From Venatoribacter cucullus (GTDB lineage Bacteria; Pseudomonadota; Gammaproteobacteria; Pseudomonadales; Oceanobacteraceae), in contig NZ_CP046056.1 of the NCBI RefSeq assembly GCF_016132445.1, positions 1,240,001-1,304,000 on the forward strand: DNA of 64,000 nt, given 5' to 3'. Shown one piece after another: positions 2-56,123 of this stretch. The translations under genes were made by a program, and so were the position numbers. The stretch's first letter is position 1; every line of letters begins with the position of its first letter. The notes under the pieces were generated by a model. It had not been told where the DNA came from. It saw nothing but the letters and a program-made list of their open reading frames with translations, and ran no database searches.

Positions 2-1453
2 CTGAATGCCCTGTTTCCAACCTTGCCAGCCGGGCAAACCGACTGGCAGAAAGTGGCCGCCGCCACGGCCTGTTTACAGCGCTTTACCGTGATTACCGGC
101 GGCCCCGGCACCGGTAAAACCACCACGGTGACGCGCTTGCTCAGCGCCTTGCTGAGTACCCAGCCAGAGCTTTCCATTGCCCTGGCCGCGCCCACGGGTA
201 AGGCGGCGGCGCGCATGACCGAATCCATCCGTAACGCCAAACTGAAGGGCGCGTTGCCCTATGCGGAACAGATTCCCGACGACAGCTTTACCCTGCATCG
301 CTTGCTGGGCTGGACTCCCAACGGCTTCCGCTACGGCGCGCAGCGGCATTTACCCTTTGATTGCGTGGTGGTGGACGAAGCCTCGATGGTGGACTTGCCC
401 ATGATGCACCATCTGCTGATGGCGCTGGCGCCGCACACGCGGCTGATTCTGCTCGGCGACCGCGACCAGCTGGCATCGGTGGAAGCCGGCAGCGTACTGG
501 CGGATTTATGCGATGCCGGCGTTGAACACGGCCCGGATACAGCTTTTGCCACCCGCCTGAGTGCGTTAACCGGCTATCCGTTGCAGCAGGTGGCCGAAGT
601 GGCCTGCAGCCCCATGCAGAATGCACTGGCGCAGCTGCGGGTATCGCATCGTTTTGATGCCAGCAGCGGCATTGGCCAGCTGGCGGCGGCGGTGAATAAC
701 AGCGATATCAGGGCAGCGCAGCAGGCATTCCGTACCTTTGTTGAGCAGATACGTACTTATGAACTGGGGCAGCAGGATGCGCCGCCGTACTGGAACAACA
801 ACGACTGGCAGCAAAACGTACGCGCAGGGCTGCAGGGTTTTTGCCATGCCGTGACCGCACAACGCCCGGCCACCGAGGTGTTTGACGCCTTTGGCCAATA
901 CCGGCTGCTGGTGGCGCTGCGCAACGGCCAGAGTGGGGTAGAGGAGGTGAACCGGCAGGTGGAACAACTGCTGGTAAAACAGGGCTTATTACCGGGCCGC
1001 CCGGAAAAAGGTTTGTGGTATGCGGGGCGGCCGGTAATGATCAGCCGCAACGATTACGATCTGGGCCTGTTTAATGGCGATGTCGGCATTACCCTGTGGC
1101 ATACCGACGGCAGCAAACCGCAACTGAAAGTGGCTTTCCCGGACAGCGACGGCGGTATCCGCTGGTTATTACCCAGCCGTTTGCCGGCGCATGAAACCGC
1201 CTTCGCCATGACCGTACACAAAAGCCAGGGTTCGGAATTTACCCGCGTGTGCCTGTTATTGCCGGAACAATGGCAGAACGTGATTACCCGCGAGCTGATC
1301 TACACCGCCATTACCCGCGCCCGCGAGCAGTTTGATGTGTTCAGCAGCAGCGACAGCTGGGAGCGTGGCGTACGCGCCCGGGTGCAGCGTGCCAGTGGTT
1401 TGCGCGAAGCATTATGGCCACAAGCGGCCAATGAGGTTGAGGAATTGTTATGA
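2..1453 (+). CDS. recD: RecD, exodeoxyribonuclease V alpha subunit (5' truncated by window edge)
   Basis: RecD is the 5'-3' helicase motor of the RecBCD double-strand-break repair nuclease. The reading frame is open to the first base, so the true start lies upstream; about 484 of the usual ~600 residues are present. Visible motifs are the Walker A loop GGPGTGKTTT near base 100, the Walker B box VVVDEASMVD near base 365, and the C-terminal superfamily 1 motifs FAMTVHKSQGSEF and LIYTAITRARE. A TTG at base 23 is open but would cut into the conserved region before Walker A, so I do not take it as the start. The stop overlaps the next start as ATGA, suggesting translational coupling with the AsmA-like gene. 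recB and recC are expected upstream, outside the window. Confidence 0.95.
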   Translation: MNALFPTLPAGQTDWQKVAAATACLQRFTVITGGPGTGKTTTVTRLLSALLSTQPELSIALAAPTGKAAARMTESIRNAKLKGALPYAEQIPDDSFTLHRLLGWTPNGFRYGAQRHLPFDCVVVDEASMVDLPMMHHLLMALAPHTRLILLGDRDQLASVEAGSVLADLCDAGVEHGPDTAFATRLSALTGYPLQQVAEVACSPMQNALAQLRVSHRFDASSGIGQLAAAVNNSDIRAAQQAFRTFVEQIRTYELGQQDAPPYWNNNDWQQNVRAGLQGFCHAVTAQRPATEVFDAFGQYRLLVALRNGQSGVEEVNRQVEQLLVKQGLLPGRPEKGLWYAGRPVMISRNDYDLGLFNGDVGITLWHTDGSKPQLKVAFPDSDGGIRWLLPSRLPAHETAFAMTVHKSQGSEFTRVCLLLPEQWQNVITRELIYTAITRAREQFDVFSSSDSWERGVRARVQRASGLREALWPQAANEVEELL

Positions 1454-4086
1454 ATAAACGTCGCACCCGGTTGGGTAAAAAACTCTGGATGTGGCTGGCA
1501 CTGGTGCTGGCCATGTTGCTTGCTCTGTTGCTGGTGGTGTTGCACAGCCTGCCCGGGCTGGGCCTGCTGGCAGCATCACGCTGGTACGCTCAGCAAGGCG
1601 AAGGCTATGCCTTAAGCGCCCAGAACTGGCAGTTTGCGCCGTTTAAAACCCGGCTGGAGCTGCACGGAGTCGAGTTACAGCACCCCGGTGTTGGTGCGGA
1701 CAGCACGCAGTTAAAGCGGCTGGTACTGCAATTCCGGCTGCGCGAACTGTTTAATCGGCGGCTGCTGGTGGAACAGGTGCAGGTGGATGGCCTGCACGGT
1801 CAGCTGGCCGTAAAGGAACAGGCTGACGGCCAGCATCTGCAGCTGGCGGGGCTGAGCTTTCCACTGGTGGCAGCACCCATGAGCGACCGTGAACCCCTGA
1901 GTGAGCAAGCGGCTGATGAGCCGGCGGTGGGCAATGCTGACGACGCTGCTCCGGGTACTGAGCCTGTGCAGGACAGCGGGCCGGAATCCGGCACCGAACC
2001 CTGGCGCTTTGCCCTTAATCAATTGCAGCTGAACGACGTGCAGTGGCAGTGGGATATTGCCCTGGCCGGGCTGCGTACTCAGGGCCAGCTGAATCTGCAG
2101 ACCTTTCAGCTCAGCCAGTTTGACAGCCTTGGTGAGCAGCCGGTGAGGGCAGAGCTGACGCTGCAACTGGCGCGGCTGGCGGTACAGCAGCCGGCAATAA
2201 CGGCCGGCGATACCGGTGATTTCAGCGACACGCTGGTGTTGCAGCAACCATTACAGCTGCAGCTGAATGGCCGCATCCACGACCTGCAGACCCAGCCGCG
2301 CTGGGAAGGTGAGGCTGGTCTGTACGATCTGCAGCTGGATATGCCGGGGCTGGTCCGGCTTAGCCTGGCTGAACTGTTGCTGGCAGGCATAAATGCCGAT
2401 GCGGTGCAGCAACAACTGCACAGTCTGCAGCTTAATGGGGTGCTGATTGAGGACAATTCCGGTCGCAACCCGGCCGTACAGCTGGAACAGCTGCACCTGC
2501 AGGAGCTAAGTAATGATGGCCGGCTGCAGGCGGTACAACAGCTGCAGCTGCAGGGCTTACGGGTCGGTGATGCGGAACAGCCGCTGCTGTTGCTGCAGCA
2601 TTACCAGCTGCAGGATATTCAATGGCAAAGCCTGGCCGGCGCTGAAGCGGCACAGAAAGGCCAGCGTCTGAGTGTTGGTGCACAGCAATATTACGGGCTG
2701 GAACTGGCGCTCCGCCGGGCCGCCGATGGCCAGATTCTGGGGCTGGCGGCAGCTGCTCCGAACGCGGTTACTGCAGAACAGACGGCTGATGCCGTTGCTG
2801 TCGAACCCGCGCCCGCCGCGGAGGAAGCGCCAGGCACAGCAGCCACAGCGTCACCGGCGCAGGCAGTATTAACACTACTGCTGGCCGGCCTGAGCCAGGC
2901 CGTGCCGGACCATGATGATGCCAGTGCCGCTGACAGTGCAGAAAACAGTGCAGAAAACAGTGCAGAAAACAGTGCAGAAAACAGTGCAGAAAACAGTGCA
3001 GAAAACAGTGCAGAAAACAGTGCAGAAAACAGTGCAGAAAACAGTGCAGAAAACAGTGCAGAAAGCAGTGCCGCTGACCGTGCTGAAAGTGCGGTGACCA
3101 GCGGCAGCACACTGATTATTGAAGACCGCAGCGTGAATCCACCGCTGCAAACCACCCTGGCCCTGCATGAGTTGCAGGTCGGCGCCGTAAACAGCCAGCT
3201 GGATGCACAGGGGTTTAACCTGCACAGCAGCGTACCGCTGCATCTGCTGCTGGGGCTGGACCGTTTTAACCGCATTACACTGGATGCCGAACTGGGCTTA
3301 TTTCAGCGCGATAACCAGCTGTACCCGCAGGGGCCGCTGCAGGTAACGGTGCGGCAGCTGGATCTGGTGCCTTTCAACGGTTATCTGGCGGAGGCCCTGG
3401 GTTACCACGTCGACCGCGGCACGCTGGATGTGGACGCCAATATCCGCATCGACAAGGCGCAACTGCAGGGCGAAATCAAACTGCTGCTGCGCAATTCCCG
3501 CTTTGTCCCGGTGGATGAGGCGACCATTGACCGGGTCAGTAAACAGATTGCCATGCCGGTGGAAACCGCACTGGATTTATTGCGCGATGATAACGGCAAC
3601 ATCCGTTTAACCATTCCGGTCAGTGGTGATCTGGCCGATCCCGATGTGGGGCTGGGGGATATTACCCGCCAGCTCAGCCGGCTGGCGTTACAGCAAGGGG
3701 CGCTGTTTTATCTGCGCCAAAGCCTGCAGCCTTACAGCACCATGCTCAGCATTGCCTCGTACGCCGGCGACTACCTGTTTGCTATCCGGCTCGATTCACT
3801 CAGCTTTGCCGACCACAGCAGTGCTATTACCGATGAGCACCAGCAACACCTGCAGAAACTGATTGGGGTTATGCGGGATAAAAAGAACCTGGAAGTGCAG
3901 GCTTGTCCTTTTGTGAATGCCGCAGAAGCGGCGGCGCTGGGGGAAAACTGGCCGCAGCTGGCCCGGGCCCGGGGCGATAACCTGAAAGCGGCGGTGGCCG
4001 CCCTGGATGCACCACTGGCTGACCGTATTTCCGTGTGCCGGCCACAGCAGGGGAAACGGGCCGAAGTGATGCTGGGTGTGAACTGA
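1450..4086 (+). CDS. DUF748/AsmA-like envelope protein with SAEN tandem repeat
   Basis: An 878-residue protein with one N-terminal membrane anchor (about residues 10-38, rich in Leu/Val/Ala after a basic MNKRRTRLGKK start) and a long periplasmic part of repeated beta-rich segments, as in the DUF748/AsmA-like family linked to outer-membrane and lipid homeostasis. The family call rests on overall pattern, including the C-terminal section (about 640-760) where VDANIRIDKAQLQGEIKLLL is typical. The last ~100 residues (ITDEHQQHLQKLIGVMRDKKNLEVQ) recall an OmpA-like region. Residues 496-535 are ten perfect SAEN units, a low-complexity linker joining two folded parts. It starts inside the recD stop codon, so it is probably co-transcribed with recD. 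Exact function is unknown. Confidence 0.75.
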   Translation: MNKRRTRLGKKLWMWLALVLAMLLALLLVVLHSLPGLGLLAASRWYAQQGEGYALSAQNWQFAPFKTRLELHGVELQHPGVGADSTQLKRLVLQFRLRELFNRRLLVEQVQVDGLHGQLAVKEQADGQHLQLAGLSFPLVAAPMSDREPLSEQAADEPAVGNADDAAPGTEPVQDSGPESGTEPWRFALNQLQLNDVQWQWDIALAGLRTQGQLNLQTFQLSQFDSLGEQPVRAELTLQLARLAVQQPAITAGDTGDFSDTLVLQQPLQLQLNGRIHDLQTQPRWEGEAGLYDLQLDMPGLVRLSLAELLLAGINADAVQQQLHSLQLNGVLIEDNSGRNPAVQLEQLHLQELSNDGRLQAVQQLQLQGLRVGDAEQPLLLLQHYQLQDIQWQSLAGAEAAQKGQRLSVGAQQYYGLELALRRAADGQILGLAAAAPNAVTAEQTADAVAVEPAPAAEEAPGTAATASPAQAVLTLLLAGLSQAVPDHDDASAADSAENSAENSAENSAENSAENSAENSAENSAENSAENSAENSAESSAADRAESAVTSGSTLIIEDRSVNPPLQTTLALHELQVGAVNSQLDAQGFNLHSSVPLHLLLGLDRFNRITLDAELGLFQRDNQLYPQGPLQVTVRQLDLVPFNGYLAEALGYHVDRGTLDVDANIRIDKAQLQGEIKLLLRNSRFVPVDEATIDRVSKQIAMPVETALDLLRDDNGNIRLTIPVSGDLADPDVGLGDITRQLSRLALQQGALFYLRQSLQPYSTMLSIASYAGDYLFAIRLDSLSFADHSSAITDEHQQHLQKLIGVMRDKKNLEVQACPFVNAAEAAALGENWPQLARARGDNLKAAVAALDAPLADRISVCRPQQGKRAEVMLGVN
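2935..3066 (+). repeat. 12-bp in-frame tandem repeat (10 perfect copies plus one variant)
   Basis: The unit AGTGCAGAAAAC occurs ten times without a mismatch (2935-3054) and once more with AGC for the last codon (3055-3066). It encodes Ser-Ala-Glu-Asn within the DUF748 gene. The unit is a multiple of three, so copy-number change keeps the frame. Absence of synonymous differences points to recent slippage expansion. Confidence 0.97.
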
Positions 4087-6355: not shown

Positions 6356-8560
6356 ATGGAAATTAAGGTTAATTTTCTCGACAACCTCCGGCTTGAAGCG
6401 AAGTTTGACGACTTCACCGTGATTGCCGACCAGCCCATCCGCTACAAAGGGGATGGGTCGGCGCCCGGTCCGTTTGATTACTTCCTCGCTTCATCGGCGC
6501 TCTGTGCGGCTTACTTTGTGAAGCTGTATTGCCAGACTCGCGATATTCCCACTGAGAATATCCGTCTGTCGCAAAACAACATCGTTGACCCGGAAAACCG
6601 CTACAACCAGATTTTTAAAATTCAGGTTGAGTTACCCGCGGATATTTCAGAAAAAGACCGCATTGGTATTCTGCGCTCCATTGACCGCTGCACCGTTAAA
6701 AAAGTAGTGCAGACCGGGCCCGAATTTGTCATTGAAGTGGTCGATAACCTTGATGCCGATGCCCAGGCGTTATTGCTGGCACCGCAGGCGCAGGGCGAAG
6801 GCACCCGCATCGAAGGCAAAGACCTGCCGCTGGAACAAACCATTGCCAATATGTCGGCCATTCTGGCCGGGCTGGGCATGAAAATTGAGATCGCTTCATG
6901 GCGCAATATTGTGCCCAATGTGTGGTCGCTGCATATCCGCGATGCCCATTCGCAGATGTGTTTTACCAACGGCAAAGGCTCCAGCAAAGAAAGCGCGCTG
7001 GCCTCGGCGCTGGGCGAATTTATTGAACGTCTGAACTGCAATTTCTTTTATAACGACCAGTTCTGGGGCGAAGAGATCGCCAATGCCGATTATGTGCATT
7101 ACCCGGAAGAACGCTGGTTTCAGCCCGGCCCTAACGATGAACTGCCGGCGGACATTCTGGATGACTATTGTCTGGACATTTATAACCCGGACGGTGAGCT
7201 GCGCGGTTCGCATCTGTACGACACCAACTCGGGTAATACCAAGCGCGGTATTTGCTCGCTGCCGTTTGTGCGCCAGTCCGACGGCGAGGTGGTGTATTTC
7301 CCGTCCAACCTGATCGAAAACCTGTATTTAAGCAACGGCATGGCCGCCGGCAATACATTGGCGGAAGCGCAGGTGCAGTGTTTGTCGGAAATTTTTGAGC
7401 GCGCGGTAAAGCGCGAAATTCTTGAAAATGAACTGACGCTGCCGGATGTGCCGGAGCACGTACTGGCCAAATACCCTGGTATTGTCGCTGGTATTAAAGG
7501 CCTGGAAGAGCAGGGCTTTCCGGTGCTGGTAAAAGACGCTTCGCTGGGCGGCCAGTTCCCGGTGATGTGCGTCACCTTAATGAACCCGCGTACCGGTGGT
7601 GTGTTTGCCTCGTTCGGCGCCCATCCCAGTTTTCATGTGGCGCTGGAGCGCAGCCTCACCGAACTGCTGCAGGGCCGCAGTTTTGAAGGCCTGAACGACC
7701 TGCCACGGCCGACCTTTGAAAGCCATGCGGTGACCGAGCCGAACAATTTTGTCGAACACTTTATTGATTCCAGCGGCGTGGTGTCCTGGCGTTTCTTCAG
7801 TGCCCGTTCCGACTATGACTTTGTCGAATGGGATTTCACCTATCAGGGTGCCGACGCCAATACCCAGGAAGCCGCCACGCTGTTCGGCATTCTGGAAGAC
7901 CTGGGCAAGGAAGTGTATATGGCGGTGTACCCGCATCTGGGCGCCAATGCCTGCCGTATTCTGGTACCGGATTATTCCGAGATTTATCCGCTCGATGACA
8001 TCATCTGGGATAACACCAATAAAGCGCTGCTATTCCGCGAAGATATTCTTAACCTGCACCGCTTAACCGATAAGCAGCTGAAGGCGTTACTGAAACGTCT
8101 GGATGACAGCGAGCTGGATCATTACACCGATATCACCACCCTGATCGGCATTGAATTTGACGACAATACCGTCTGGGGTCAGCTGACCATTCTGGAACTG
8201 AAACTGCTGATCAGTCTGGCCCTGCAACGGCTGGAAGATGCTCAGGATCTGGTCGGAGAATTTCTGCAATTTAACGACAACACCGTTGAACGCGGGCTGT
8301 TTTATCAGGCCATGAATGCCGTGCTGGAAGTAACACTGGACGACGAGCTGGAACTGGCTGACTTTGAGCCCAATTTCCGCCGCATGTTCGGTAATGAACG
8401 TATGGATGCTGTGATTGGCTCAGTCGATGGTTCAGTGCGCTTCTATGGCTTAACGCCCACCAGTATGAAGCTGGAAGGGCTGGATAAGCACCTGCGCCTG
8501 ATCGACAGCTATAAAAAGCTGCACGCCGCGCGGGGCAGGGCGGTTAATAATATTGGTTAA
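6356..8560 (+). CDS. ycaO: OsmC-YcaO fusion, YcaO-type (ribosomal protein S12 methylthiotransferase accessory factor)
   Basis: A 734-residue protein. Residues ~1-140 are OsmC-like (SAPGPFDYFLASSALCAAYFVKLYC, with the redox-type Cys), and the rest is a YcaO ATP-grasp-like amide-activating domain. YcaO ATP/Mg signatures are visible: SKESALASALGEFIERLNC and AEAQVQCLSEIFERAVKREI, with the spaced acidic residues typical of the family, then a helical C-terminal region. E. coli YcaO, which affects RimO-dependent beta-methylthiolation of S12, has about 586 residues and lacks the OsmC part, so the length difference equals that added domain. No precursor peptide or RiPP genes lie nearby, so a housekeeping role is preferred over RiPP cyclodehydration. 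The start ATG is followed by a convincing OsmC sequence; terminated by a shared hairpin. Confidence 0.88.
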   Translation: MEIKVNFLDNLRLEAKFDDFTVIADQPIRYKGDGSAPGPFDYFLASSALCAAYFVKLYCQTRDIPTENIRLSQNNIVDPENRYNQIFKIQVELPADISEKDRIGILRSIDRCTVKKVVQTGPEFVIEVVDNLDADAQALLLAPQAQGEGTRIEGKDLPLEQTIANMSAILAGLGMKIEIASWRNIVPNVWSLHIRDAHSQMCFTNGKGSSKESALASALGEFIERLNCNFFYNDQFWGEEIANADYVHYPEERWFQPGPNDELPADILDDYCLDIYNPDGELRGSHLYDTNSGNTKRGICSLPFVRQSDGEVVYFPSNLIENLYLSNGMAAGNTLAEAQVQCLSEIFERAVKREILENELTLPDVPEHVLAKYPGIVAGIKGLEEQGFPVLVKDASLGGQFPVMCVTLMNPRTGGVFASFGAHPSFHVALERSLTELLQGRSFEGLNDLPRPTFESHAVTEPNNFVEHFIDSSGVVSWRFFSARSDYDFVEWDFTYQGADANTQEAATLFGILEDLGKEVYMAVYPHLGANACRILVPDYSEIYPLDDIIWDNTNKALLFREDILNLHRLTDKQLKALLKRLDDSELDHYTDITTLIGIEFDDNTVWGQLTILELKLLISLALQRLEDAQDLVGEFLQFNDNTVERGLFYQAMNAVLEVTLDDELELADFEPNFRRMFGNERMDAVIGSVDGSVRFYGLTPTSMKLEGLDKHLRLIDSYKKLHAARGRAVNNIG

Positions 8561-8654: not shown

Positions 8655-11600
8655 TTATTCAGCCGCGACCGGTTTTACCACAAACAACAGATCGCCCTGG
8701 TTCACCTGCTGGCCATCGCTGTTCATGATGCGCGTCACCTTATACTTCTGCGACGCCGGGTACAGGTCAGTACCGGCACGGTTGAAGTGTTTCAGGCTCA
8801 GCGGCGTGAACATTTTCATCGCTTCCATCAGACACAGGGTCTGATCGATATTGATGATATCGCCTTCTTTCACGAACGGCGGTTCACTCGGTGAAGACGA
8901 GCCGTAGAAAATGCTGGTCGAGGGTGACAGCACTTTCAGTTCGTCGGAGCCTTCAATCTTCAGTGCAGCGGCGTCAACCGCGTTGGCACTCAGCTCGGCG
9001 GCGTCTTCAATATCCTGAATCAGGGCATCGGCATCAATGCGATCGAGGAATTGCGGCAGGTAAGTGGTGTCGTACACACCTTCCTGGAACACCTTATCGT
9101 CCAGCACGCGCTTCAGCAGCGGAATGTTGGTGCACACGCCGGTAATACGTACGCGCTCCAGGTATTCACGCAGCTTGGCGATGGTGTCGTTACGGTCTTT
9201 GCCGTAGCAAATAATCTGCACCACCATGCTGTCGTAGAAGGGCGATACTTTCTTGCCAGGCGCCGCCATGGCGATCAGCTCGATGTAATCTTCTTCCGGC
9301 AGCACACAGTCGCGGATCTGACCCGGGGTCGGCACAAACTCGATGTTGTCGTTTTTGCGCACGGCTTTTTCAGCGTTCACCCGCACTTCAATGGCGTAGC
9401 CTTTAGATACCGGTTTCAGGTCGGCAATGGATTCGCCTTCGGCAATTTTGAACTGCGTGCTGACGATATCAATGCCCGACACCAGTTCAGTAACCGGGTG
9501 CTCTACCTGCAAACGGGTATTCATTTCCATGAAATAAATGGTGTTGGCGGCCAGGTCGAAAATAAATTCAACCGTACCGGCACCCACGTATTTCACCGCA
9601 TCGGCCAGCTTGGCGGCGTAGTCGTAAGCGGCTTGTTCCAGTTCACGCGGCAGCATGGTGGAACCGGACTCTTCAAAAATCTTCTGGTTATTACGTTGTA
9701 CAGAACAGTCGCGCAGACCGAGGATTTTGGTGTTGCCATGGCTGTCACGCAGTACCTGCACTTCAATATGACGCAGTGAGGTCACGTATTTTTCCAGGTA
9801 CACGTCGCCGTTACCGAAGGCGGCTTTGGCTTCCATGGAAATCTGCTGGAACAGGGCATGGATTTTATCGGCGGAATGCACCACCTGAATGCCCTTACCA
9901 CCGCCACCGTGTACCGCTTTCAGCAGCACCGGGTAGCCGATTTCGTCAGCCACCGCGGCGGCATTGGCCGAGCTGGTTAAAATACCGTGCGAACCCGGTA
10001 CCACCGGTACCTGTACGCGCATGGCGGTATTAATGGCGTTGGATTTGTTACCCATGGTTTCCATGGCGGAAACCGGCGGCCCAACAAAGTTAATGTCGTG
10101 GTTACCACACAGAGCGGCAAACTGGCTGCTTTCCGACAGGAAGCCGATACCCGGGTGCAGGGCGTCCACTTCTTCGTGGTGGGCGATACGCAGCACCGAT
10201 TTGGCGTTCAGGTAACTTTCATCCGGGGTGTTACCACCGATACAGATCACGCGGTCCTGCGGGCCGAGCATATCGACCGGTACCGAATCCATATCCGGGT
10301 CGGACTGAATCAGCACCACCTGAATATTGTTTTCCTGCGCTTTGCGGATCAGCTTCACCGCGGTACAGCCACGGGCGTGAATCAGAACCTTGTCGATCTT
10401 GCCGAATTTTTTCAGCTTGCTGGCGTTTTCACCGGTATCCGGTGCCAGACGTTCCGCGGTCACGAAGCCCTGCAATACACGATCCAGTACGTCATCGACG
10501 CTGTAACGGGCCACCGGCATATCCGGGTCAATGGCGCGCAGACGTTCGTCCAGATCGTCAAAGAACGGGTGGCGTACCAGGCCGTCCATGGACTGCGGTG
10601 ATACCGACAGATAGTTAGACAGCGTGCAGGTGCTGGGCAGGTAGCTGGGTACCACAATCTGGCCGGCGAACGGCATGTTGGTGCCGGAGAAATAATAGTT
10701 TTGCGCCAGCGGGTGCGTTACGAAGGATGCCTGCGCACCACCGGTACAGTCACCAAAGCCGAAAATCACAATCGGCAGGTCGTTATCACGCACAAAGCGG
10801 GTGATACGGTCGTTGACCACGGCCATAGAGAACAGAGCCGCAGCCCCTTCTTTGGTTTGCATGCCACCGGACGATACAAAGCACACAATCGGCAGGTTCA
10901 GGCGTGCACATTCCACCATCAGTTTGCAGAATTTCTCGGCGGCGGCCATATCGAAGGCGCCGGCCTGGAAGTCCAGGTTGGAGACCAGCGCGCCCACCTG
11001 CTGCTGACGGTCACCGATCTTGATGGTACCGATACCGGTAATCACACCGCAGGGTTTGATGTCTTTTTTCAGCGCTTCTTCGATGGAGCTGCGGAAGCCC
11101 GGGAAGGCCACCGGGTCGGCGGACATCAGGCTGGCGTTGGTTTCGGTGAAGTCACTGAAGAAACGCGCAACAATGGCCTTGGCCGAGGTTTTCTTCTGCC
11201 GCTTGGTGTCATCCAGAACCTGCTGAATCAGCAGGTCGTGGTAAGCCATGGTCAGGCGGTTCCAGAAGTCTTTACGGCGACCAATGGATACCGGGCTGAT
11301 GCGGCCGTTGTAGGCTTTGCCATCCTGCTCAGCGGCATGATATTCCGGCAGCAGTTTTTCAAAGATAAAGGTGATTACCACAAACAATGTGTCGGACAGG
11401 CGCGGGAAGGCCAGTTTTTTCCACTCTTCCACTGACTTCAGGAAGTCACCACGCTGGCTGCTCTTAATGAAGTAGCTCAGCCAGTGGTTGAAGGATTCAC
11501 GTTCCTGCGCGGTGTAGCTGTCGCCGGCGGTGGCTTCGGCCAGGGATTTTTCCAGCAGCACTTTCAGCGAGTCACGCGACAGCGCGCGGTGCTCGTTGGC

Positions 11601-13562
11601 TTCTTTGGCCACGTTCACCAGGTTGCCGATAAAGTTGTCGTACAGCTGACCGAATACCAGCATGTTCTGACACACATGGCTGAATTCATCGCGCAGTTCG
11701 TCGTGCAGAATGGCGTCCAGAATGGTGATATCCGGATGCGCCGGGTTCTGGATATTGTCCTGACGGAACTGAATATAGGGCGCCAGCGCTTCTTCCAGAA
11801 TACGGCGGTTGGCTTCCACTTTGCTGCTGGCCAGACTGTTGGCCAGGGCTTCAGTACGGGTAGACAGTTTCAGCTGGGCGCGGATTTCATCGGGAATCAG
11901 ATCATCCTGCAGAATGCTGTTCAGCGCCGTGGCCAGCGCTTGCTTCAGGGCGCCCCGGGATTTTTCTTTGGTTAAGCCCTGGGTCAGTTCCTGACGGGTT
12001 TCGTGCGGTAACTGTTCACGGATCCAGGTGGCCAGTGCGTGCGGATTTTTCTCAATAAATTCAGCAACTGCGGTGGCATCCAGAATATCGCCGGCACGCA
12101 GCATAAACTGGCTTTGTTTGTAGTCTTCCAGGTAATTCATCAGGCCGTCAAAGTTGACCGGCGCATCAGACTTCCAGCGGTTAAACAAATACAGGCCGAG
12201 GTTAAAGCACAGTTCCTGCTTGGCTTTCAGGTAATTGTTTTTCGGCTCACCCAGAAACAGCCGGGCAATGGTGCTGCGGCTTTCGTCACGGTCTTCGTAT
12301 TTAGACCAGAAATTTTTCCAGCTTTTGTGCAGCAGGTCGTCGTAAACGATTTTTTCCGGTGCCTGCAGCCAGTTCTGGAATTTGCGCTTGGATTCACGCT
12401 GCAAACGCTGTTGCAGCTGACCTTCCGGTACCTCTTTATCCGCCAGGCGACCATAATTTTCCACGCTGGTGGAATGAATTCGGCGGCGCATGGTGAGGTA
12501 ACGGGTATAGCGGTAGCTTAAGCCGAACAGGTTGATGTGCTCGGTCGGGTTCTGGGCGAGGAAGAAATTCGCGCCTTTTTCCAGTTTAACCAGCTTATCG
12601 GACGGCGACAGGAAACGGTCAATACTGCGCTTGTAGTGGTCCATCAGATACGGATTGGTGCGGGCAAATTCGGCCGCACTTTCTTCGATGGACTGAATGC
12701 CGGTGGTGATGGCCTGCAGCAGGTTGTAACGTTTTTCGTCGGCGTCGGACGGAGCGTAATCAATAATGCCGTCGATAATACCGGCGGCCCGCAGTTCGTA
12801 AGAAGATACGCCAACATACTTGGCGCATTCCTGCCACGACAGGTTGTATTTACGCGCAATACTGGCCAGACCCTGCGGCTGGATGGTGTTGAAAATACCA
12901 TCACGTACGCTCAGCAGAATGTTGGTGGCGGCCAGCGGAATGGCACCACCGGAATAGCCAGCGCCCCAGATAATACCGACGGTCGGCACATCGTTGTTGG
13001 CCATTTCGGTGATCAGGTGGGAAATACTGTGAGCCTGGTTGGCGGCGTTAGCGGCCTCACCGGCATCGGCACCGGGGGTGTCGATAAAGGTCACAATCGG
13101 CATGGAACGACGGGCAAAAGCACGGGCAACCTGAGCAGCACGATTATGGTGTTGCGGGCCCCAGGCGCCATGGGCGTGTTCGCGGTTCTGACAGATAAAA
13201 CCGACCCGGCGCTGATGGTCACCAAATTCGACATCGGCTTCGGCGCAATACAGCGGGCCGTCTTCGGTTTCGGTAATAATGCGGATAACCAGGTGCTTGA
13301 TGATGTCTTTGGCACCCATGCGGTTACTGTTTTCGCTGGGCGCGACAGCCTGCTCAATGTAGCTGTCGATGTCCAGCTCGCGCAGGCGCTCCACTTCGGC
13401 GTTGCACCTGGCCGGCGAGATCAGGCCTTTAACGCGGTGGTCAACGGCGTTGTCTTCGTATTCCGGAAACAGGGAAAAGTCTGCCGACAGCTGCTCGGCT
13501 TCCTGGAACAGTTGGTCGACGCTGCGGTCGGTGGTGTCAAGCGGGTTGATTTTTTGTTTCAT
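8655..13562 (-). CDS. Single-chain acyl-CoA (probably acetyl-CoA) carboxylase, domain order AccA-AccD-AccC-AccB
   Basis: A 1635-residue multidomain biotin enzyme. Residues ~90-310 resemble the AccA carboxyltransferase half (IVTFIDTPGADAGEAANAAN; GAGYSGGAIPLAATN). About 500 residues follow without a domain I recognise. Residues ~820-1030 resemble the AccD half (LPIVCFVSSGGMQTKEGAAAL; FGDCTGGAQASF), with no obvious zinc finger. Residues ~1050-1500 are biotin carboxylase (glycine-rich KAVHGGGGKGIQ, FMEMNTRLQVEHPVTE). The biotinyl domain is at the end, with EAMKM and biotin-accepting Lys1583; about ten extra residues seem inserted after this motif. I start at MKQKINPL because the upstream in-frame GTG at 13634 lies inside a hairpin and adds a non-conserved 24 residues. 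It follows fabB on the same strand, suggesting malonyl-CoA supply for fatty acid synthesis. Propionyl-CoA or longer substrates cannot be excluded. Confidence 0.9.
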   Translation of the reverse strand: MKQKINPLDTTDRSVDQLFQEAEQLSADFSLFPEYEDNAVDHRVKGLISPARCNAEVERLRELDIDSYIEQAVAPSENSNRMGAKDIIKHLVIRIITETEDGPLYCAEADVEFGDHQRRVGFICQNREHAHGAWGPQHHNRAAQVARAFARRSMPIVTFIDTPGADAGEAANAANQAHSISHLITEMANNDVPTVGIIWGAGYSGGAIPLAATNILLSVRDGIFNTIQPQGLASIARKYNLSWQECAKYVGVSSYELRAAGIIDGIIDYAPSDADEKRYNLLQAITTGIQSIEESAAEFARTNPYLMDHYKRSIDRFLSPSDKLVKLEKGANFFLAQNPTEHINLFGLSYRYTRYLTMRRRIHSTSVENYGRLADKEVPEGQLQQRLQRESKRKFQNWLQAPEKIVYDDLLHKSWKNFWSKYEDRDESRSTIARLFLGEPKNNYLKAKQELCFNLGLYLFNRWKSDAPVNFDGLMNYLEDYKQSQFMLRAGDILDATAVAEFIEKNPHALATWIREQLPHETRQELTQGLTKEKSRGALKQALATALNSILQDDLIPDEIRAQLKLSTRTEALANSLASSKVEANRRILEEALAPYIQFRQDNIQNPAHPDITILDAILHDELRDEFSHVCQNMLVFGQLYDNFIGNLVNVAKEANEHRALSRDSLKVLLEKSLAEATAGDSYTAQERESFNHWLSYFIKSSQRGDFLKSVEEWKKLAFPRLSDTLFVVITFIFEKLLPEYHAAEQDGKAYNGRISPVSIGRRKDFWNRLTMAYHDLLIQQVLDDTKRQKKTSAKAIVARFFSDFTETNASLMSADPVAFPGFRSSIEEALKKDIKPCGVITGIGTIKIGDRQQQVGALVSNLDFQAGAFDMAAAEKFCKLMVECARLNLPIVCFVSSGGMQTKEGAAALFSMAVVNDRITRFVRDNDLPIVIFGFGDCTGGAQASFVTHPLAQNYYFSGTNMPFAGQIVVPSYLPSTCTLSNYLSVSPQSMDGLVRHPFFDDLDERLRAIDPDMPVARYSVDDVLDRVLQGFVTAERLAPDTGENASKLKKFGKIDKVLIHARGCTAVKLIRKAQENNIQVVLIQSDPDMDSVPVDMLGPQDRVICIGGNTPDESYLNAKSVLRIAHHEEVDALHPGIGFLSESSQFAALCGNHDINFVGPPVSAMETMGNKSNAINTAMRVQVPVVPGSHGILTSSANAAAVADEIGYPVLLKAVHGGGGKGIQVVHSADKIHALFQQISMEAKAAFGNGDVYLEKYVTSLRHIEVQVLRDSHGNTKILGLRDCSVQRNNQKIFEESGSTMLPRELEQAAYDYAAKLADAVKYVGAGTVEFIFDLAANTIYFMEMNTRLQVEHPVTELVSGIDIVSTQFKIAEGESIADLKPVSKGYAIEVRVNAEKAVRKNDNIEFVPTPGQIRDCVLPEEDYIELIAMAAPGKKVSPFYDSMVVQIICYGKDRNDTIAKLREYLERVRITGVCTNIPLLKRVLDDKVFQEGVYDTTYLPQFLDRIDADALIQDIEDAAELSANAVDAAALKIEGSDELKVLSPSTSIFYGSSSPSEPPFVKEGDIINIDQTLCLMEAMKMFTPLSLKHFNRAGTDLYPASQKYKVTRIMNSDGQQVNQGDLLFVVKPVAAE

Positions 13563-13630: not shown

Positions 13631-13662
13631 GCACCCGGTGGCGAAATCGCCACCCTGAGTGC
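13631..13662 (-). promoter_or_regulatory. Leader hairpin between fabB and the carboxylase gene
   Basis: GGTGGCGA-AA-TCGCCACC is a perfect 8-bp stem (13637-13654), extended after an internal loop by GCAC/GTGC. It lies in the 171-base fabB-carboxylase gap and has no T-run after it, so RNA stabilisation, processing or partial attenuation is more likely than full termination. Confidence 0.5.
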
Positions 13663-13733: not shown

Positions 13734-14945
13734 TTACAGAGACTGAAAAACCAGCGCCGCGTTGGTGCCACCAAAGCCAAAACTGTTCGACATAACGGTT
13801 TTCAGCTGGGCCGGGCGGTTTTCAGTCACAATCGGGAAGCTGGCCGCGCCTTCGTCCCGTTCGCTGATGTTGGCACTGCCGGTAATAAAACCGTGTTTCA
13901 GCATCAGCAGGCTGTAAATGGCTTCCTGCACACCGGCGGCACCCAATGAGTGACCGGTAAGGGATTTGGTGGAACTGATCGGCGGAATGGTATTGCCAAA
14001 GGCCTCTGCCACCGCTTTCAGCTCGGTGATGTCACCGGCTGGGGTGCTGGTGCCGTGAGTATTCAGATAATCAATGGTCGGGTTGCCGGCCATGGCCAGG
14101 GCATCACGCATACAGCGGATCGCGCCTTCACCGGACGGGGCGACCATATCGGCACCGTCGGAGGTGGCGGAGTAACCAATCAGTTCGGCATAAATAGTGG
14201 CACCACGTTTTACCGCGTGTTCGTATTCTTCCAGTACCAGCATGCCGCCGCCGCCGGCGATGACGAAGCCGTCACGGTTGGCATCGTAAGGGCGGGAAGC
14301 GCTTTCCGGGCTGTCGTTGTATTTGCTCGACAGGGCGCCCATGGCGTCAAACTGGGTGGTCAGGGACCAGTGTTCTTCTTCACCGCCACCGGCGAAGACG
14401 ATGTCTTGCTTGCCCCACTGAATCAGCTCCATACCGTGGCCAATACAATGCGCACTGGTGGCGCAGGCGGAGGTCATGGAGTAGTTCACACCTTTAATAG
14501 AGAAAGGCGTGGCCAGGTTGGCAGAGACGGTGCTGCCCATGGTGCGGGTAACGCGGTAGGGGCCAACTTTGCGGACGCCTTTTTCGCGCAGAATATCGAC
14601 GGATTCGACAATGTCGCTGGCGGAAGCGCCACCGGAACCGGCCACTAAGCCGGTACGCGGGTTACTGATCATCTCTTCGGTGAGGCCGGCATCGGCAATG
14701 GCTTCACGCATGGACAGATAGGCGTAAGCGGCCGAGTCACCCATAAAGCGTTTCAGTTTGCGGTCGATGACTTCGTCGAGGTCAATCTGCGGTTTGCCGG
14801 CCACATGGCTGCGCAAGCCCAGTTCGGCGTATTCCGGCATAAAGCGGATACCTGAACGCTGTGCCTGCAATGACGCCAGCACTTCCTCTTTGTTGTTACC
14901 AATGCAACCAACGATACCAATACCTGTAACCACAACTCGACGCAT
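13734..14945 (-). CDS. fabB: FabB, 3-oxoacyl-ACP synthase I
   Basis: A 403-residue condensing enzyme that elongates acyl-ACP with malonyl-ACP; FabB-type enzymes are required for unsaturated fatty acid synthesis. The thiolase-fold triad is complete: nucleophile Cys161 in SACATSAHC, first His in [11 protein letters not shown], second His in TGHSLGAAG, and a glycine-rich [10 protein letters not shown] end. Start choice: ATG at 14945 gives the family-typical MRRVVVTG; a GTG two codons upstream (14951) is also possible, and an AAAGGT Shine-Dalgarno lies just before both. fabA is not adjacent, unlike the fabAB pair of many pseudomonads; instead the fused carboxylase gene lies downstream after 171 bases. 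A 22-base palindrome sits 28-49 bases upstream of the start. Confidence 0.93.
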
Positions 14946-14972
14946 AACCACTCGACCTTTTCAGCAAAATAC

Positions 14973-34049: not shown

Positions 34050-34201
34050 ATGGCCGTTATTTGCCGCTGCGTCGCTGTTCTGGTCGCTTATTATCGCTGT
34101 CCTGATCAGTCTCTATACCTTGGTGTTATGACCCTTGGTCGAATGGCTGGCGCAGCCTCTGATCCCCTATGGTAGCTCTATTGTTATGCAGGGGAATCAG
34201 C

Positions 34202-36088
34202 ATGAGTTATCAGCAGGAATATCGTTTATCCATCGAACAACCGGAACAGTTCTGGGCGAAGCAGGCCAAGAATATCCAGTGGTTTAAAGCGCCGCGGCGT
34301 ATTCTGAGCAAAGACGAAAATGGCATTGACCGTTGGTTTGCCGACGGTGAGTTGAATACCGCCTTTCTGGCACTCGATTACCATGTGTTGCACGGTCGTG
34401 GTGAGCAGCTGGCGCTGATTTACGATTCGCCGGTTACCGGCCAGCGCAGCACCTATACCTACAACCAGCTGACCGAAGCGGTAGCGCGTTGTGCCGGGGC
34501 ATTGCAGCAGCTGGGCGTGGGCAAGGGCGATCGCGTGGTGATCTATATGCCGATGATTCCCCAGGCCGCTATTGCCATGCTGGCCTGCGCGCGTCTGGGC
34601 GCGGTGCATTCAGTGGTCTTTGGCGGTTTTGCGCCGCACGAATTGGCCATTCGTATTGATGATGCCGAGCCCAAAGTGGTGATATCGGCTTCCTGCGGTA
34701 TCGAAGTGGATCGCGTTATTGAATATAAGCCCATTCTGGACTCCGCCATCGCTATGGCCACGCACAAGCCGGAGTGGTGCCTGATTTATCAGCGTGAGCA
34801 GAAACCCTGCAACCTGATTGCCGGCCGCGATCTCGACTGGTCACAAACGGTTGCCCGGGCGCAACCGGCCGATTGCACTCCGGTACGGGGTGATGACCCG
34901 CTCTATGTACTCTACACCTCCGGCACCACCGGCAAGCCCAAAGGCGTTGTGCGTGATAACGGTGGCCATGCCGTGGCCATGCGTTACAGCATGAAAGTTA
35001 TGTACGATATGCAGCCCGGTGACGTGTTCTGGGCCGCCTCGGATGTGGGCTGGGTGGTTGGCCACTCCTACATTGTTTATGCGCCGCTGATCGCCGGCTG
35101 CACCACCATTCTTTACGAAGGTAAACCGGTACGCACTCCGGATGCCGGTGCGTTCTGGCGCGTGTGTGCTGAGTATGGTGTGAAAGGACTGTTTGCCGCC
35201 CCGACTGCGTTCCGGGCTATCCGCAAAGAAGATCCGGAGTGCACTCAGGCAGGCAAATATGACCTGAGCAAGCTGAAAACCATTTTTATGGCCGGCGAAC
35301 GGTTGGATCCGCCCACCTATGACTGGGTGGTTAAGCATCTGCAGCGCCCGGTGATTGATCACTGGTGGCAGACCGAAACCGGTTGGGCCATTGCCGGCAA
35401 CCATGTTGGTCTGGATCCGGTGGCGGTGAAAGCCGGTTCAGTAACCCGGCCATCACCGGGCTATAACGTGCAGATTCTGGATGCCAAAGGCAAGCCGGTA
35501 GCCGCCGGCGAGCAGGGCATTATTGCCATTAAGCTGCCATTGCCACCGGGTTGTCTGCCGACCATCTGGGCGAATCATGAGCGCTTTGAGGCCGGGTATC
35601 TGAATGCCTTCAAAGGCTATTACATCACCGGTGACGGTGGTTATGTGGATGCCGACAACTACCTGTATGTGCTGGGCCGTACCGATGACATTATCAACGT
35701 CGCCGGTCACCGGTTATCCACCGGTGAAATGGAAGAGGTGGTGGCCGGACATGAAGCCGTAGCGGAATGTGCCGTGATTGGCCGCCACAGCGAGCTGAAA
35801 GGCGAAGAGCCATTAGGCCTGGTGCTGCTGAAAGACGGTGTGCAGATTGATGAAGAGCAGCTGCGTGCCGAGCTGGTGCAGCGCGTACGGGATCAGATTG
35901 GTGCGGTCGCCAGCTTCCGCGATGCCATTGTGGTGCAGCGCCTGCCAAAAACCCGGTCCGGTAAAATTCTGCGCAAAGTGCTGCGTAATATCGCCAACCA
36001 CGAAGAGTATCAGGCGCCATCCACCATCGATGATCCGGCCTGTCTGGCCGAGATTGAGCAGATCCTGAAAAGCAAAGGCTTAAGCTGA
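34202..36088 (+). CDS. prpE: PrpE, propionyl-CoA synthetase
   Basis: A 628-residue AMP-forming acyl-CoA synthetase activating propionate. P-loop YTSGTTGKPKGVVRDNGGH, WAASDVGWVVGHSYIVYAPL, adenylate motif DHWWQTETGWAIAG, hinge YLYVLGRTDDIINVAGHRLSTGEMEE, and acetylatable C-terminal Lys in KTRSGKILRK. The N terminus (YRLSIEQPEQFW...GELNTAFLALDYHV) and length equal PrpE (628) rather than Acs (~650). The ATG at 34202 follows AGGGGAATC; an upstream extension has no ribosome site. The prpBCD genes are absent here, so this copy is outside a methylcitrate operon. An acetate-using enzyme is the main alternative. Confidence 0.9.
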   Translation: MSYQQEYRLSIEQPEQFWAKQAKNIQWFKAPRRILSKDENGIDRWFADGELNTAFLALDYHVLHGRGEQLALIYDSPVTGQRSTYTYNQLTEAVARCAGALQQLGVGKGDRVVIYMPMIPQAAIAMLACARLGAVHSVVFGGFAPHELAIRIDDAEPKVVISASCGIEVDRVIEYKPILDSAIAMATHKPEWCLIYQREQKPCNLIAGRDLDWSQTVARAQPADCTPVRGDDPLYVLYTSGTTGKPKGVVRDNGGHAVAMRYSMKVMYDMQPGDVFWAASDVGWVVGHSYIVYAPLIAGCTTILYEGKPVRTPDAGAFWRVCAEYGVKGLFAAPTAFRAIRKEDPECTQAGKYDLSKLKTIFMAGERLDPPTYDWVVKHLQRPVIDHWWQTETGWAIAGNHVGLDPVAVKAGSVTRPSPGYNVQILDAKGKPVAAGEQGIIAIKLPLPPGCLPTIWANHERFEAGYLNAFKGYYITGDGGYVDADNYLYVLGRTDDIINVAGHRLSTGEMEEVVAGHEAVAECAVIGRHSELKGEEPLGLVLLKDGVQIDEEQLRAELVQRVRDQIGAVASFRDAIVVQRLPKTRSGKILRKVLRNIANHEEYQAPSTIDDPACLAEIEQILKSKGLS

Positions 36089-53126: not shown

Positions 53127-56123
53127 ATGAAACAGACCTCCCGACGTTCCGCCGTCTTTATGGCTGCAGTGTTTATGGCCGTTACGCTGGCTGGTTGCAG
53201 TGGTAACAGTTCATCTTCATCAGGCCGGCAACCCGTCACCCCGAATTATGTTAATGGCTACCTGGGTACGGCCAATATCCGCAATGCCACGGTGTATGCC
53301 GTGCCGGTTAACGTGCAGGGCCAGCCCGGTACTGAGCTGGATAAACTGAACCAACAGGTTTATCTGGGCGAAGTCACCAGCTCGGACGTGCAGGGTTATT
53401 ACCGGGTGCGGGTTGCCCAGCAGGATATTGGCAAAGCCATGGTGCTGATTGTGCAGGGTAAAGACGCCGGCACCACCACGGCGGTATGTGAACTGACCCT
53501 GGGCTGTGCCGATGGCTGGGCCTACAAACAAGCCAAAGACGTCGCCAGCGATTTCAGCCTGACCGCGGCGGTCGGCAATGTGCAGAACAACACCCGCATT
53601 AACATCAACTGGCTGACGCATCTGGCCGCTGACCATGCCTACACCAGTTACATTGATGATGATGATGATGATGATAATGATAATGGTAATGGGCAAGCAA
53701 CCACGCCCACTGAAGGCATGTTTACCCCGTTCACTATTGAGCGCGGCAATATCTGGTTAAGCCGTCAGTTTGGTCTGAGCGATGTGGTATCGGTACGTCC
53801 GATTGCACCATCGGAGATGCACAATGATCCAGGCCTTAGTGCTGTTATCCGCCAGGAAGGTATTCTGTACGGCTTACTTCTGGCTGCTGGTCAGCAATTG
53901 GCACTTGATGCTGACCAGAATGAGGTTGAGTGGTTGCGCGATGTGGTTGCTCAGCAGCGCCAGTTGGGCGGTCAATTATATCTGAACAATTCCAGCGGGT
54001 TTTCAATGGCAGCCCTTTATCAGGCTGCGCTGGGTATCGCCGAACAGCATCAGCAACGGTTGCAATCGTCTTCTCTGGCTGTACCGCCGCAGCTGCCTGC
54101 GGTGATTGAAATTCTGCGTAATCAAGCCAATCAGTTATCGGCTCTCGCTGAGGGTACTCGTTCTGACATCCGTGTTGATGCTGCAGAGATTAATAACTGG
54201 GTTGATCGTTTTAAGCAGGCCGAAGAGTTTTTGACCGATCTGAACCAGCGCTTGCTGAATTTCAGCGGCGATGACCCGAAAACCTGTGGCCTTTATACGG
54301 GTGATGATTGCGTTAACAGCTTTGTTGACCCGGCCTATGTGGAAAAAACCGTTGATTATTACGATGGCCTGGAAGCCCTGTACCGTAAGGTCGGGCCGGG
54401 GCTGGATATCGCTGTGGAAAGGCTGCGCGATCATGCGTTGGATTTTATCCGCTGCCTGAATGGCGCAACCTGTATCAGCGCGAATTTCAACGCCACCGCC
54501 AAAACCTACAGCGTCGATAGACTTACCCTGACGGTGAAAGGGGTGCTGGTGGGCCTGGATGGCGAAGTGGCCGGTAAATTTAACGCCTTTGATGTCGAGA
54601 TTACCGGCACTCAGACGGTGAGCTATGTGAACGGGAATGGTGAGCGCCAAACCCTGTACGTGGCCTATCAACCCGTTAAAAATGCCGGCACCAATACAGA
54701 AAGCAAAGCCCGTTTGCGGCTGGTGTATAACAACGCTTTCACGCAGCCGCCGCTCACCGCAGTGGATGATGGCAGTGGCATCTTGCCATCCGGTTATACC
54801 GAAGCGCTGGGTTTTGATCTTGAGTGGCCGCTGGTGGAAATTACCTTTAATGGCGAACAGGAAACGCTGGATTTTTATCTGGCGGCCAAATTAATCGGCG
54901 TTAAAGACGCTCTCGAACCGACCAGCCTGTATCACTACAACCTCACCGAGCTGTCGCTGCGTACCCGGGTACAGGGCGAGCCGCTGGGTAGCTTTAATGA
55001 GCAGGGCGTCTCCGGTGATTTACGCAATCAGGCCGAGCTGACCTTCAGTCTGAAGCCTAATAACGCCGCCAACTATTATTCCCCCACGCCCTGGCCGCGC
55101 AGTGCCGATTATTTTCAGGCCCGCGAAGGGTTCGTGGCGGATGACACCACCCCGGTGCGGGAAACCGGTTTGTTCAGATATCGACTATTGGATAATCAGA
55201 GCATTGTGCTGAGCGCCACCGAAGCCGGCGTCGAAACCCGGGTAACAGCGAATTACCTGGAAATTGAAACCCCGGGGCTGGGTATTAACCGCTTTGAATT
55301 ATTCACCACCGATGATCAGAAGATGCTGCGAAAATGTTCCATTGAACGCGATGAAGATGGCCGGTCACGGGAGCTGAAAAAAATCTGTACCTCGCCCAAC
55401 AGCGTTGTGGACGATTTTGATCTGATCAAGGATCTGATTAACGGCGAAGAAGATTATCTGGGCCTGTTTGCTATTCCCGGTCGCGGGGCCTATAAGCCGG
55501 ATTTTCCAGCAAGCATTGACTGGAGTGATGATGATGATGTCGTTATCGACGGTATTCTGCGCGCTTCCTTTGTGCAGGGGCTGGACCAGCTGAACTTGCG
55601 CGTGGCGCATGAGCTGGTGGATATGGTGAACAATGTAGCCACCCGCGCACCGCGCGCCATCGTCAATGTGCGGGTCAACCGGCCCACGGTCGATAACTGG
55701 GAAGTGGCCATTGCTGCTGGTTACGATTATGACTATCTGGTCGATGTGCTGCCCACCGGCACCCGGGCGCAAAGCTTGTATTTATCTTATCTGGTACGTG
55801 ATCTGGGCGGGCAGGGCGATAAGCGTTTCTTTACCGAACTGGGCAGCCTGATCGTGTTCCGTGGCGGAGTTAAGCTGTTCACCAATGACGAAAAGGGCGA
55901 AAGCATTGGCGTCACGCTGGCTTCAAGGGTCGACTACGAACTGGGTGATGAAAGCACCCCCTGCGGTTATGCCAACCGTGATCAGTTGGTGGCGGTGGCC
56001 GGCAGCTGTGACGCCGTTGGCTATATTACTTTCCGCAATGCGCTGGTGGCGGTCATCCGCGAAGAACGGGGCGTGTACGTGGCCCGCTTCAGCGACGGCC
56101 GTTTTATTGTGCTGGGAGTCTGA
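53127..56123 (+). CDS. Large outer-membrane-type lipoprotein, function unknown
   Basis: A 998-residue secreted protein. The N terminus has a type II signal peptide (basic MKQTSRRS, hydrophobic 9-20, lipobox LAGC with Cys24) followed by a Ser-rich linker; no Asp at +2, so outer-membrane sorting is likely. An early beta-rich region (~35-150) looks like an Ig/carboxypeptidase-regulatory-type fold (NVQGQPGTELDKL). Residues 177-183 are seven Asp in a DDDDDDDNDNGNG stretch, possible calcium site. The rest is mixed helical (~200-440) and beta-rich (~450-998). I recognise no enzyme motif. The next gene, only six bases on, encodes a barrel-like protein, so the two probably act together at the outer membrane. 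Confidence 0.8.
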   Translation: MKQTSRRSAVFMAAVFMAVTLAGCSGNSSSSSGRQPVTPNYVNGYLGTANIRNATVYAVPVNVQGQPGTELDKLNQQVYLGEVTSSDVQGYYRVRVAQQDIGKAMVLIVQGKDAGTTTAVCELTLGCADGWAYKQAKDVASDFSLTAAVGNVQNNTRININWLTHLAADHAYTSYIDDDDDDDNDNGNGQATTPTEGMFTPFTIERGNIWLSRQFGLSDVVSVRPIAPSEMHNDPGLSAVIRQEGILYGLLLAAGQQLALDADQNEVEWLRDVVAQQRQLGGQLYLNNSSGFSMAALYQAALGIAEQHQQRLQSSSLAVPPQLPAVIEILRNQANQLSALAEGTRSDIRVDAAEINNWVDRFKQAEEFLTDLNQRLLNFSGDDPKTCGLYTGDDCVNSFVDPAYVEKTVDYYDGLEALYRKVGPGLDIAVERLRDHALDFIRCLNGATCISANFNATAKTYSVDRLTLTVKGVLVGLDGEVAGKFNAFDVEITGTQTVSYVNGNGERQTLYVAYQPVKNAGTNTESKARLRLVYNNAFTQPPLTAVDDGSGILPSGYTEALGFDLEWPLVEITFNGEQETLDFYLAAKLIGVKDALEPTSLYHYNLTELSLRTRVQGEPLGSFNEQGVSGDLRNQAELTFSLKPNNAANYYSPTPWPRSADYFQAREGFVADDTTPVRETGLFRYRLLDNQSIVLSATEAGVETRVTANYLEIETPGLGINRFELFTTDDQKMLRKCSIERDEDGRSRELKKICTSPNSVVDDFDLIKDLINGEEDYLGLFAIPGRGAYKPDFPASIDWSDDDDVVIDGILRASFVQGLDQLNLRVAHELVDMVNNVATRAPRAIVNVRVNRPTVDNWEVAIAAGYDYDYLVDVLPTGTRAQSLYLSYLVRDLGGQGDKRFFTELGSLIVFRGGVKLFTNDEKGESIGVTLASRVDYELGDESTPCGYANRDQLVAVAGSCDAVGYITFRNALVAVIREERGVYVARFSDGRFIVLGV
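53655..53675 (+). repeat. GAT trinucleotide repeat (7 copies) in the lipoprotein gene
   Basis: Seven GAT codons in a row encode poly-Asp, followed by AAT/GAT alternation. Frame is kept whatever the copy number. Confidence 0.95.

Follow-up and report, generated by a model that had tools for sequence, protein, structure and literature searches.

A long-form AccS-like gene next to fabB in Venatoribacter cucullus probably encodes a single-chain acetyl-CoA carboxylase

Acetyl-CoA carboxylase initiates fatty-acid synthesis. In most bacteria it is heteromeric and consists of separate polypeptides, with a Cys4 zinc ribbon in AccD, and in the eukaryotic and actinobacterial homodimeric enzymes biotin carboxylase (BC) and the biotinyl carrier domain (BCCP) precede the carboxyltransferase (CT). 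A gene in the stretch of Venatoribacter cucullus DNA analysed here (64,000 nucleotides, hereafter the window) matches neither arrangement, and it raises the question of what carboxylase it encodes, whether that class has been described and whether the genome holds another. In all likelihood, judging by sequence comparison, its product is a single-chain acetyl-CoA carboxylase of the AccS type, which provides the malonyl-CoA used in type II fatty-acid synthesis; we further infer that it is biotinylated, forms a dimer, acts on acetyl-CoA and uses its linker as a scaffold.

Domain order and kinship with Shewanella AccS

The accS-like gene occupies 8655..13562, the coordinates originally predicted, on the minus strand, from an ATG at 13562 to a stop at 8655, with 1,635 codons in one frame, and its assignment as a single-chain acetyl-CoA carboxylase rests on this open frame and on a phmmer match to PDB 9kkm. 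An alternative in-frame GTG at 13634 adds 24 residues (1,659 codons in total), and the matches of most relatives begin at residues 22-40 of this longer version, which provides the numbering used here (P0001; GTG at 13634 = residue 1). An OsmC-YcaO protein gene at 6356-8560 on the plus strand (TIGR03549, 1486.1 bits) converges with accS. Elsewhere in the window, two plus-strand open reading frames of 878 and 998 amino acids (1450-4086 and 53127-56123) had no match in an NCBIfam search at E 1e-60.

From its N terminus the protein carries an AccA-like CT half (12675..13412; residues 75-320), an all-helical linker of about 510 residues (11145..12674; residues 321-830), an AccD-like CT half without a zinc ribbon (10410..11144; residues 831-1075), a BC domain (9045..10397; residues 1080-1530) and a biotinyl carrier domain (8658..8987; residues 1550-1659), all on the minus strand and with approximate borders for the first three. 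The AccA-like half is placed by PF03255 (residues 150-315, 101 bits), NF041504 and the structure model, the AccD-like half by TIGR00515 (829-973, 44.7 bits), the BC domain by NF006367 (1080-1530, 488.9 bits) and alignment to E. coli AccC, and the carrier by TIGR00531 (1550-1654, 47.3 bits) and alignment to E. coli AccB, with every score under its curated cut-off among the 25 of 55 NCBIfam matches listed for the protein. We take an AccB-like 'thumb' to be part of the carrier domain. Weak Pfam matches (DUF2529, KinB_sensor and similar) fell below the cut-off and were dropped. The reversed order of the CT halves is shown independently by PF01039, since its first match, at residues 142-237, falls on profile positions 294-389, in the second half, whereas its other match, in the later AccD-like block, covers the first half (35-146).

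Structure comparison gives the same placement. Residues 75-1075 were modelled with a mean pLDDT of 78.0 and a pTM of 0.65. The best structural match to this model is 9kkm_A, at Z 40.5 over 826 residues, followed at Z 29.0-29.7 by CT-alpha-type chains that align inside the first ~325 residues of the model: 9a4k_B; 2f9i_C and 5kdr_A, both of S. aureus; 2f9y_A and 8uz2_A, both of E. coli; and 9m70_B of Chloroflexus, all six of which we take to be AccA chains. The N-terminal block is therefore not in the AccD position, a placement that would have undone the original prediction of an AccA-AccD-BC-BCCP order in one 1,635-residue chain; that order is borne out by the Pfam and NCBIfam placements and the structure model. 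Its contrast with the eukaryotic enzyme, LCC and PCC-type enzymes was also right: the window protein shares with eukaryotic and actinobacterial homodimeric carboxylases (SACE_4237) a single chain with all three functions and a large extra region, but its BC (1080-1530) and BCCP (1550-1654) come after both CT halves.

The closest solved relative by sequence is 9kkm/9w4a, a 1,517-residue 'Acetyl-CoA carboxylase multifunctional enzyme AccADCB' that the window protein matches with 1914.9 bits in phmmer (552.8 over 36-508 and 1365.0 over 634-1656). The 9kkm entry, released on 2025-11-19, is titled 'cryo-EM structure of acetyl-CoA carboxyltransferase holoenzyme dimer from Shewanella oneidensis, mutant E1238A'. 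SO_0840 is the AccS of S. oneidensis, with 1,517 amino acids (PMC4793157), and 9kkm is very probably this same protein, given the equal length and organism. The same source states that S. oneidensis has no AccABCD homologues and has AccS instead, though a separate AccB homologue exists (PMC4793157). In PMC11602165, AccS is a multiple-domain ACCase whose domain order is unlike the eukaryotic one, is biotinylated, runs near 170 kDa and is encoded by a gene activated by the LysR-type regulator AccR. The AccS class is thus already described, in print since at least 2016 and solved in Shewanella. That the close homologs form a described class is one of the outcomes that would have refuted the original prediction, and it largely holds; the undescribed architecture that the original prediction had implied does not stand against PMC4793157, PMC11602165 and a near end-to-end solved structure. 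A literature search on the entry codes and topic found no paper describing 9kkm, the name AccADCB turned up in a gene list in Berkiella, in a passage that does not mention fusion, and a non-exhaustive search found no report of AccS in Thalassolituus.

Compared with Shewanella AccS, both CT halves, the linker, BC and BCCP are homologous and stand in identical order. The window protein is set apart by a linker about 115 residues longer, which makes it a long form, and its gene has fabB as the upstream neighbour on the same strand, whereas Shewanella has a divergent accR. No LysR domain or divergent accR was found in the 10 neighbouring open reading frames scanned; such a divergent accR-accS pair is not a defining feature of AccS.

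Linker, catalytic sites and integrity of the gene

The original prediction had singled out a joining region of about 500 residues without a recognised domain, and no Pfam family matches there above its cut-off, although its homologue in 9kkm is solved. An AlphaFold2 model of the linker alone, with a mean pLDDT of 79.8 and a pTM of 0.73, consists almost entirely of helices. The single Foldseek match under E 0.001 is 9kkm, which also leads the structural alignment (Z 26.9, 2.8 A, 284 residues; next row Z 4.7) and appears in the profile search at E 5.4e-147, so the linker has a solved relative within AccS. Among the structural matches listed, none besides 9kkm stands out, so that no kin outside AccS, the central domain of eukaryotic acetyl-CoA carboxylase included, showed up, with the caution due to a helical model of more than 400 residues. 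The simplest role for the linker would be that of a scaffold on which the AccA-like and the AccD-like half, which usually are separate polypeptides, can fold within a single chain, and its helices may hold both halves and the BC domain in position.

About 115 linker residues of the window protein have no counterpart in the 9kkm match. The stretch skipped there (11736..12110, minus strand; residues 509-633) is nearly absent in other short forms as well. Among the 42 hand-picked rows of the tree, residues 505-640 correspond to 113-139 residues in long forms versus 16-23 in nine short forms (L101-L103, L107, L123-L126 and L128); across 79 aligned rows, four have 16-19 residues there and the remainder 115-139. 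A tree built without the columns of the extra stretch gives four changes of state in the 42 rows, a count that is unsure because the branch of L128 measures 5.75 and joins a second long branch. One short-form relative, L124, shares the BC-loop and BCCP traits described below with the window protein.

For conserved sites, 107 open reading frames were reduced to 84 sequences by removing copies and adding the window protein, and to 79 by leaving out five shorter than 1,450 residues; counts refer to the 78 rows other than L001, which is identical to the query, and structure alignments covered 38 of the aligned loci plus the window. With the residue roles and E. coli numbers that we assume for the BC, CT and biotin positions, BC residues K116, K159, H209, Q233, K238, E276, E288, N290 and R292 are invariant in all 78 rows, and E296 and R338 are kept in 77 rows, the remaining row holding an unread residue in each case. 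The glycine pairs of both CT halves (window residues 229-230 and 965-966) are likewise invariant (78/78). The predicted biotinylated lysine, K1607 in EAMKM (8814..8816, minus strand), is a lysine in 74 rows and gapped in four. The insertion that had been predicted after EAMKM is real: relative to E. coli AccB it comprises 13 residues (8757..8795, minus strand), and it is family-wide, as the span from the lysine measures 29-31 residues wherever the region is covered (74 of 78 rows). By the established pathway of biotin-dependent carboxylases and the Shewanella enzyme, the BC domain would carboxylate the biotin attached to K1607 at the expense of ATP and with bicarbonate, and the C-terminal carrier would then move to the CT formed by the two halves, where acetyl-CoA would become malonyl-CoA.

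Each window domain aligns with its subunit of heteromeric E. coli acetyl-CoA carboxylase (63/267 identical aligned residues for AccA, 29/97 for AccB, 174/446 for AccC and 52/257 for AccD). The window enzyme differs in being fused, in having 13 residues after EAMKM, in lacking the AccD zinc ribbon (no CxxC occurs in the chain) and in the residue at the E. coli His236 position. This position, the BC loop histidine of RRHQK in E. coli, is occupied by N in 40 of the 78 rows and by K in the other 38, never by His; in the window it is N (residue 1316, 9687-9689), and the Q and K that follow are invariant. Such a replacement would count against an acetyl-CoA carboxylase, but we rest no functional claim on it.

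An unusual fusion could also be an inactive or chimeric product, made by joining separate genes in assembly or left by a decaying pseudogene. The architecture is rare, as had been expected for gammaproteobacteria (the linker occurs in six of 370 genomes drawn evenly from the class, the window's own included), and the matches in three related genomes (G017, G018 and G021) list one or two internal stops, though the open frames there span 1,628-1,675 residues. Against this, the window's own gene has no internal stop, the listed catalytic positions show little or no variation and a relative has been solved in 9kkm. In addition, 79 distinct sequences of at least 1,450 residues, counting the window protein, can be aligned over the length of the chain, which excludes an assembly error, and the loci encoding AccS encode the chain at 51-90% identity to the window protein in their best segments, which excludes a chance origin of the open frame. 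We therefore give an inactive or chimeric product next to no probability.

Substrate and place in the genome

The window belongs to a genome of one contig, with 2,827,114 bases and 99.64% completeness. No separate accA, accD or accB scored over its cut-off in this genome, and Carboxyl_trans matched nothing but the two halves of the accS-like frame. The gene is thus very probably the sole acetyl-CoA carboxylase of the genome, and malonyl-CoA very probably comes from its product. The search for accABCD elsewhere, proposed with the original prediction, returned one second BC, at C1:2480386-2481720, which passes NF005525 'acetyl-CoA carboxylase biotin carboxylase subunit' (928.4 bits, cut-off 768). 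Its neighbour is of the pyruvate carboxylase B/oxaloacetate decarboxylase alpha type (NF006761, 924.7 bits; TIGR01108, 854.5 bits), and since it scores so as pyruvate carboxylase subunit B we interpret the two genes as the two subunits of a pyruvate carboxylase. A third BCCP-like match lies in a 596-residue frame at C1:2245105. At 2.83 Mb the genome is much smaller than those of eight relatives of the same genus (3.9-4.4 Mb).

The enzyme might instead carboxylate another or a broader range of substrates, such as propionyl-CoA or longer-chain acyl-CoA, and serve odd-chain or secondary metabolism and not bulk malonyl-CoA. Single-chain carboxylases can be broad, as SACE_4237 carboxylates both acetyl- and propionyl-CoA (PMC6491548), and the window also contains, at 34169-36088, a propionate--CoA ligase-like gene with 741.3 bits, below the cut-off of 955. 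This reading is very unlikely in view of the missing second carboxyltransferase and missing accA, accD and accB just described, and of the CT halves, which score as AccA and AccD and align better with CT-alpha-type chains than with PCC chains (Z 29 versus 22 and less). The CT half of another single-chain bacterial carboxylase, which presumably has a different domain order and a PCC-type CT, also aligns less well, at Z 20.5. In Shewanella, growth of an accR mutant of S. oneidensis is rescued by accS or by E. coli accA/accD/accBC (PMC11602165), and rescue of a regulator mutant by the E. coli acetyl-CoA carboxylase supports acetyl-CoA as the substrate. An acetyl-CoA carboxylase is accordingly what we take the window protein to be in the following.

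fabB pairing and distribution

The gene directly upstream of accS is fabB (beta-ketoacyl-ACP synthase I; 13734..14951, minus strand; NF005935, 683.1 bits, cut-off 630), on the same strand and 171 bases before the accS ATG. A fabB homologue stands in the same place in 27 of the 30 loci L001-L030, missing in L027, L029 (whose flank is only 917 bases) and L030. None was found upstream of accS in L054-L058, L061-L089, L091-L093 and L095-L107 (several with short flanks), nor in L123-L127 and L129. Since no homologue was found there beyond the window's side of the tree, the pairing characterises the Thalassolituus side and not AccS overall. One distant relative, L128 (1695-9607 of its locus, genome G039), has FabA-like (NF003509, 216.3 bits, cut-off 124), FabB-like (NF005935, 595.7 bits, below the cut-off of 630) and FabV (513.7 bits, cut-off 403) genes in a row with a short AccS, in a genome that also keeps separate accA, accD and accB. 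The fabA of the window genome lies elsewhere, at C1:654577. Both the fabB context and this row of fab genes fit a supply of malonyl-CoA for fatty acids.

AccS was found in 35 of 55 genomes, counting the window's own and the split or partial matches in G039 and G049. The carriers are the window genome, seven of eight others of its genus, 24 of 25 others of the family and three of 21 others of the order, so that 31 of the 33 family genomes searched besides the window's own have it. Separate accA, accD and accB are below cut-off in 32 of the 35, and all three are present in G026, G030 and G039. Among the 20 non-carriers, accA scores over the cut-off in 17, a cut-short accA piece falls just below it in G045, and G007 and G031 have neither system. 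A further 21 carriers were chosen as gene-bearing; many are metagenome assemblies, 16 have no stated completeness, and L049 was left out. Within this set, 19 have no accA and accD over the cut-off, and G202 and G425 have both, the latter being the genome of Saccharospirillum salsuginis (L103), with AccS alongside separate subunits. With five carriers (G026, G030, G039, G202 and G425) holding separate subunits too, AccS need not be the sole acetyl-CoA carboxylase everywhere.

Three carriers are labelled Verrucomicrobia, Lentisphaeria and Kiritimatiellae (L101, L102 and L107). All have short-form AccS and no separate accA or accD over the cut-off, and their proteins form one starred group in the trees. 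The Lentisphaeria carrier is arguably not a stray contig, since its record, of 1.95 Mb, is described as a chromosome.

As far as literature searches show, and leaving aside the supplementary list of AccS holders in PMC11602165, three features may be new: the long form, the pairing with fabB and the occurrence in other phyla. A more speculative proposal, which we consider rather unlikely, is that long-form AccS and the fabB locus mark a branch with regulation of its own, where the supply of malonyl-CoA and the condensing step come under joint control, that the extra stretch serves regulation or assembly and is missing from the solved Shewanella enzyme, and that AccS also moved between Gammaproteobacteria and Verrucomicrobiota/Lentisphaerota/Kiritimatiellota. 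The window protein extends the known range of a rare layout of acetyl-CoA carboxylase, with a domain order unlike the eukaryotic one, and the long and short forms, together with the five genomes that hold both systems, offer natural comparisons for the evolution of subunit fusion.
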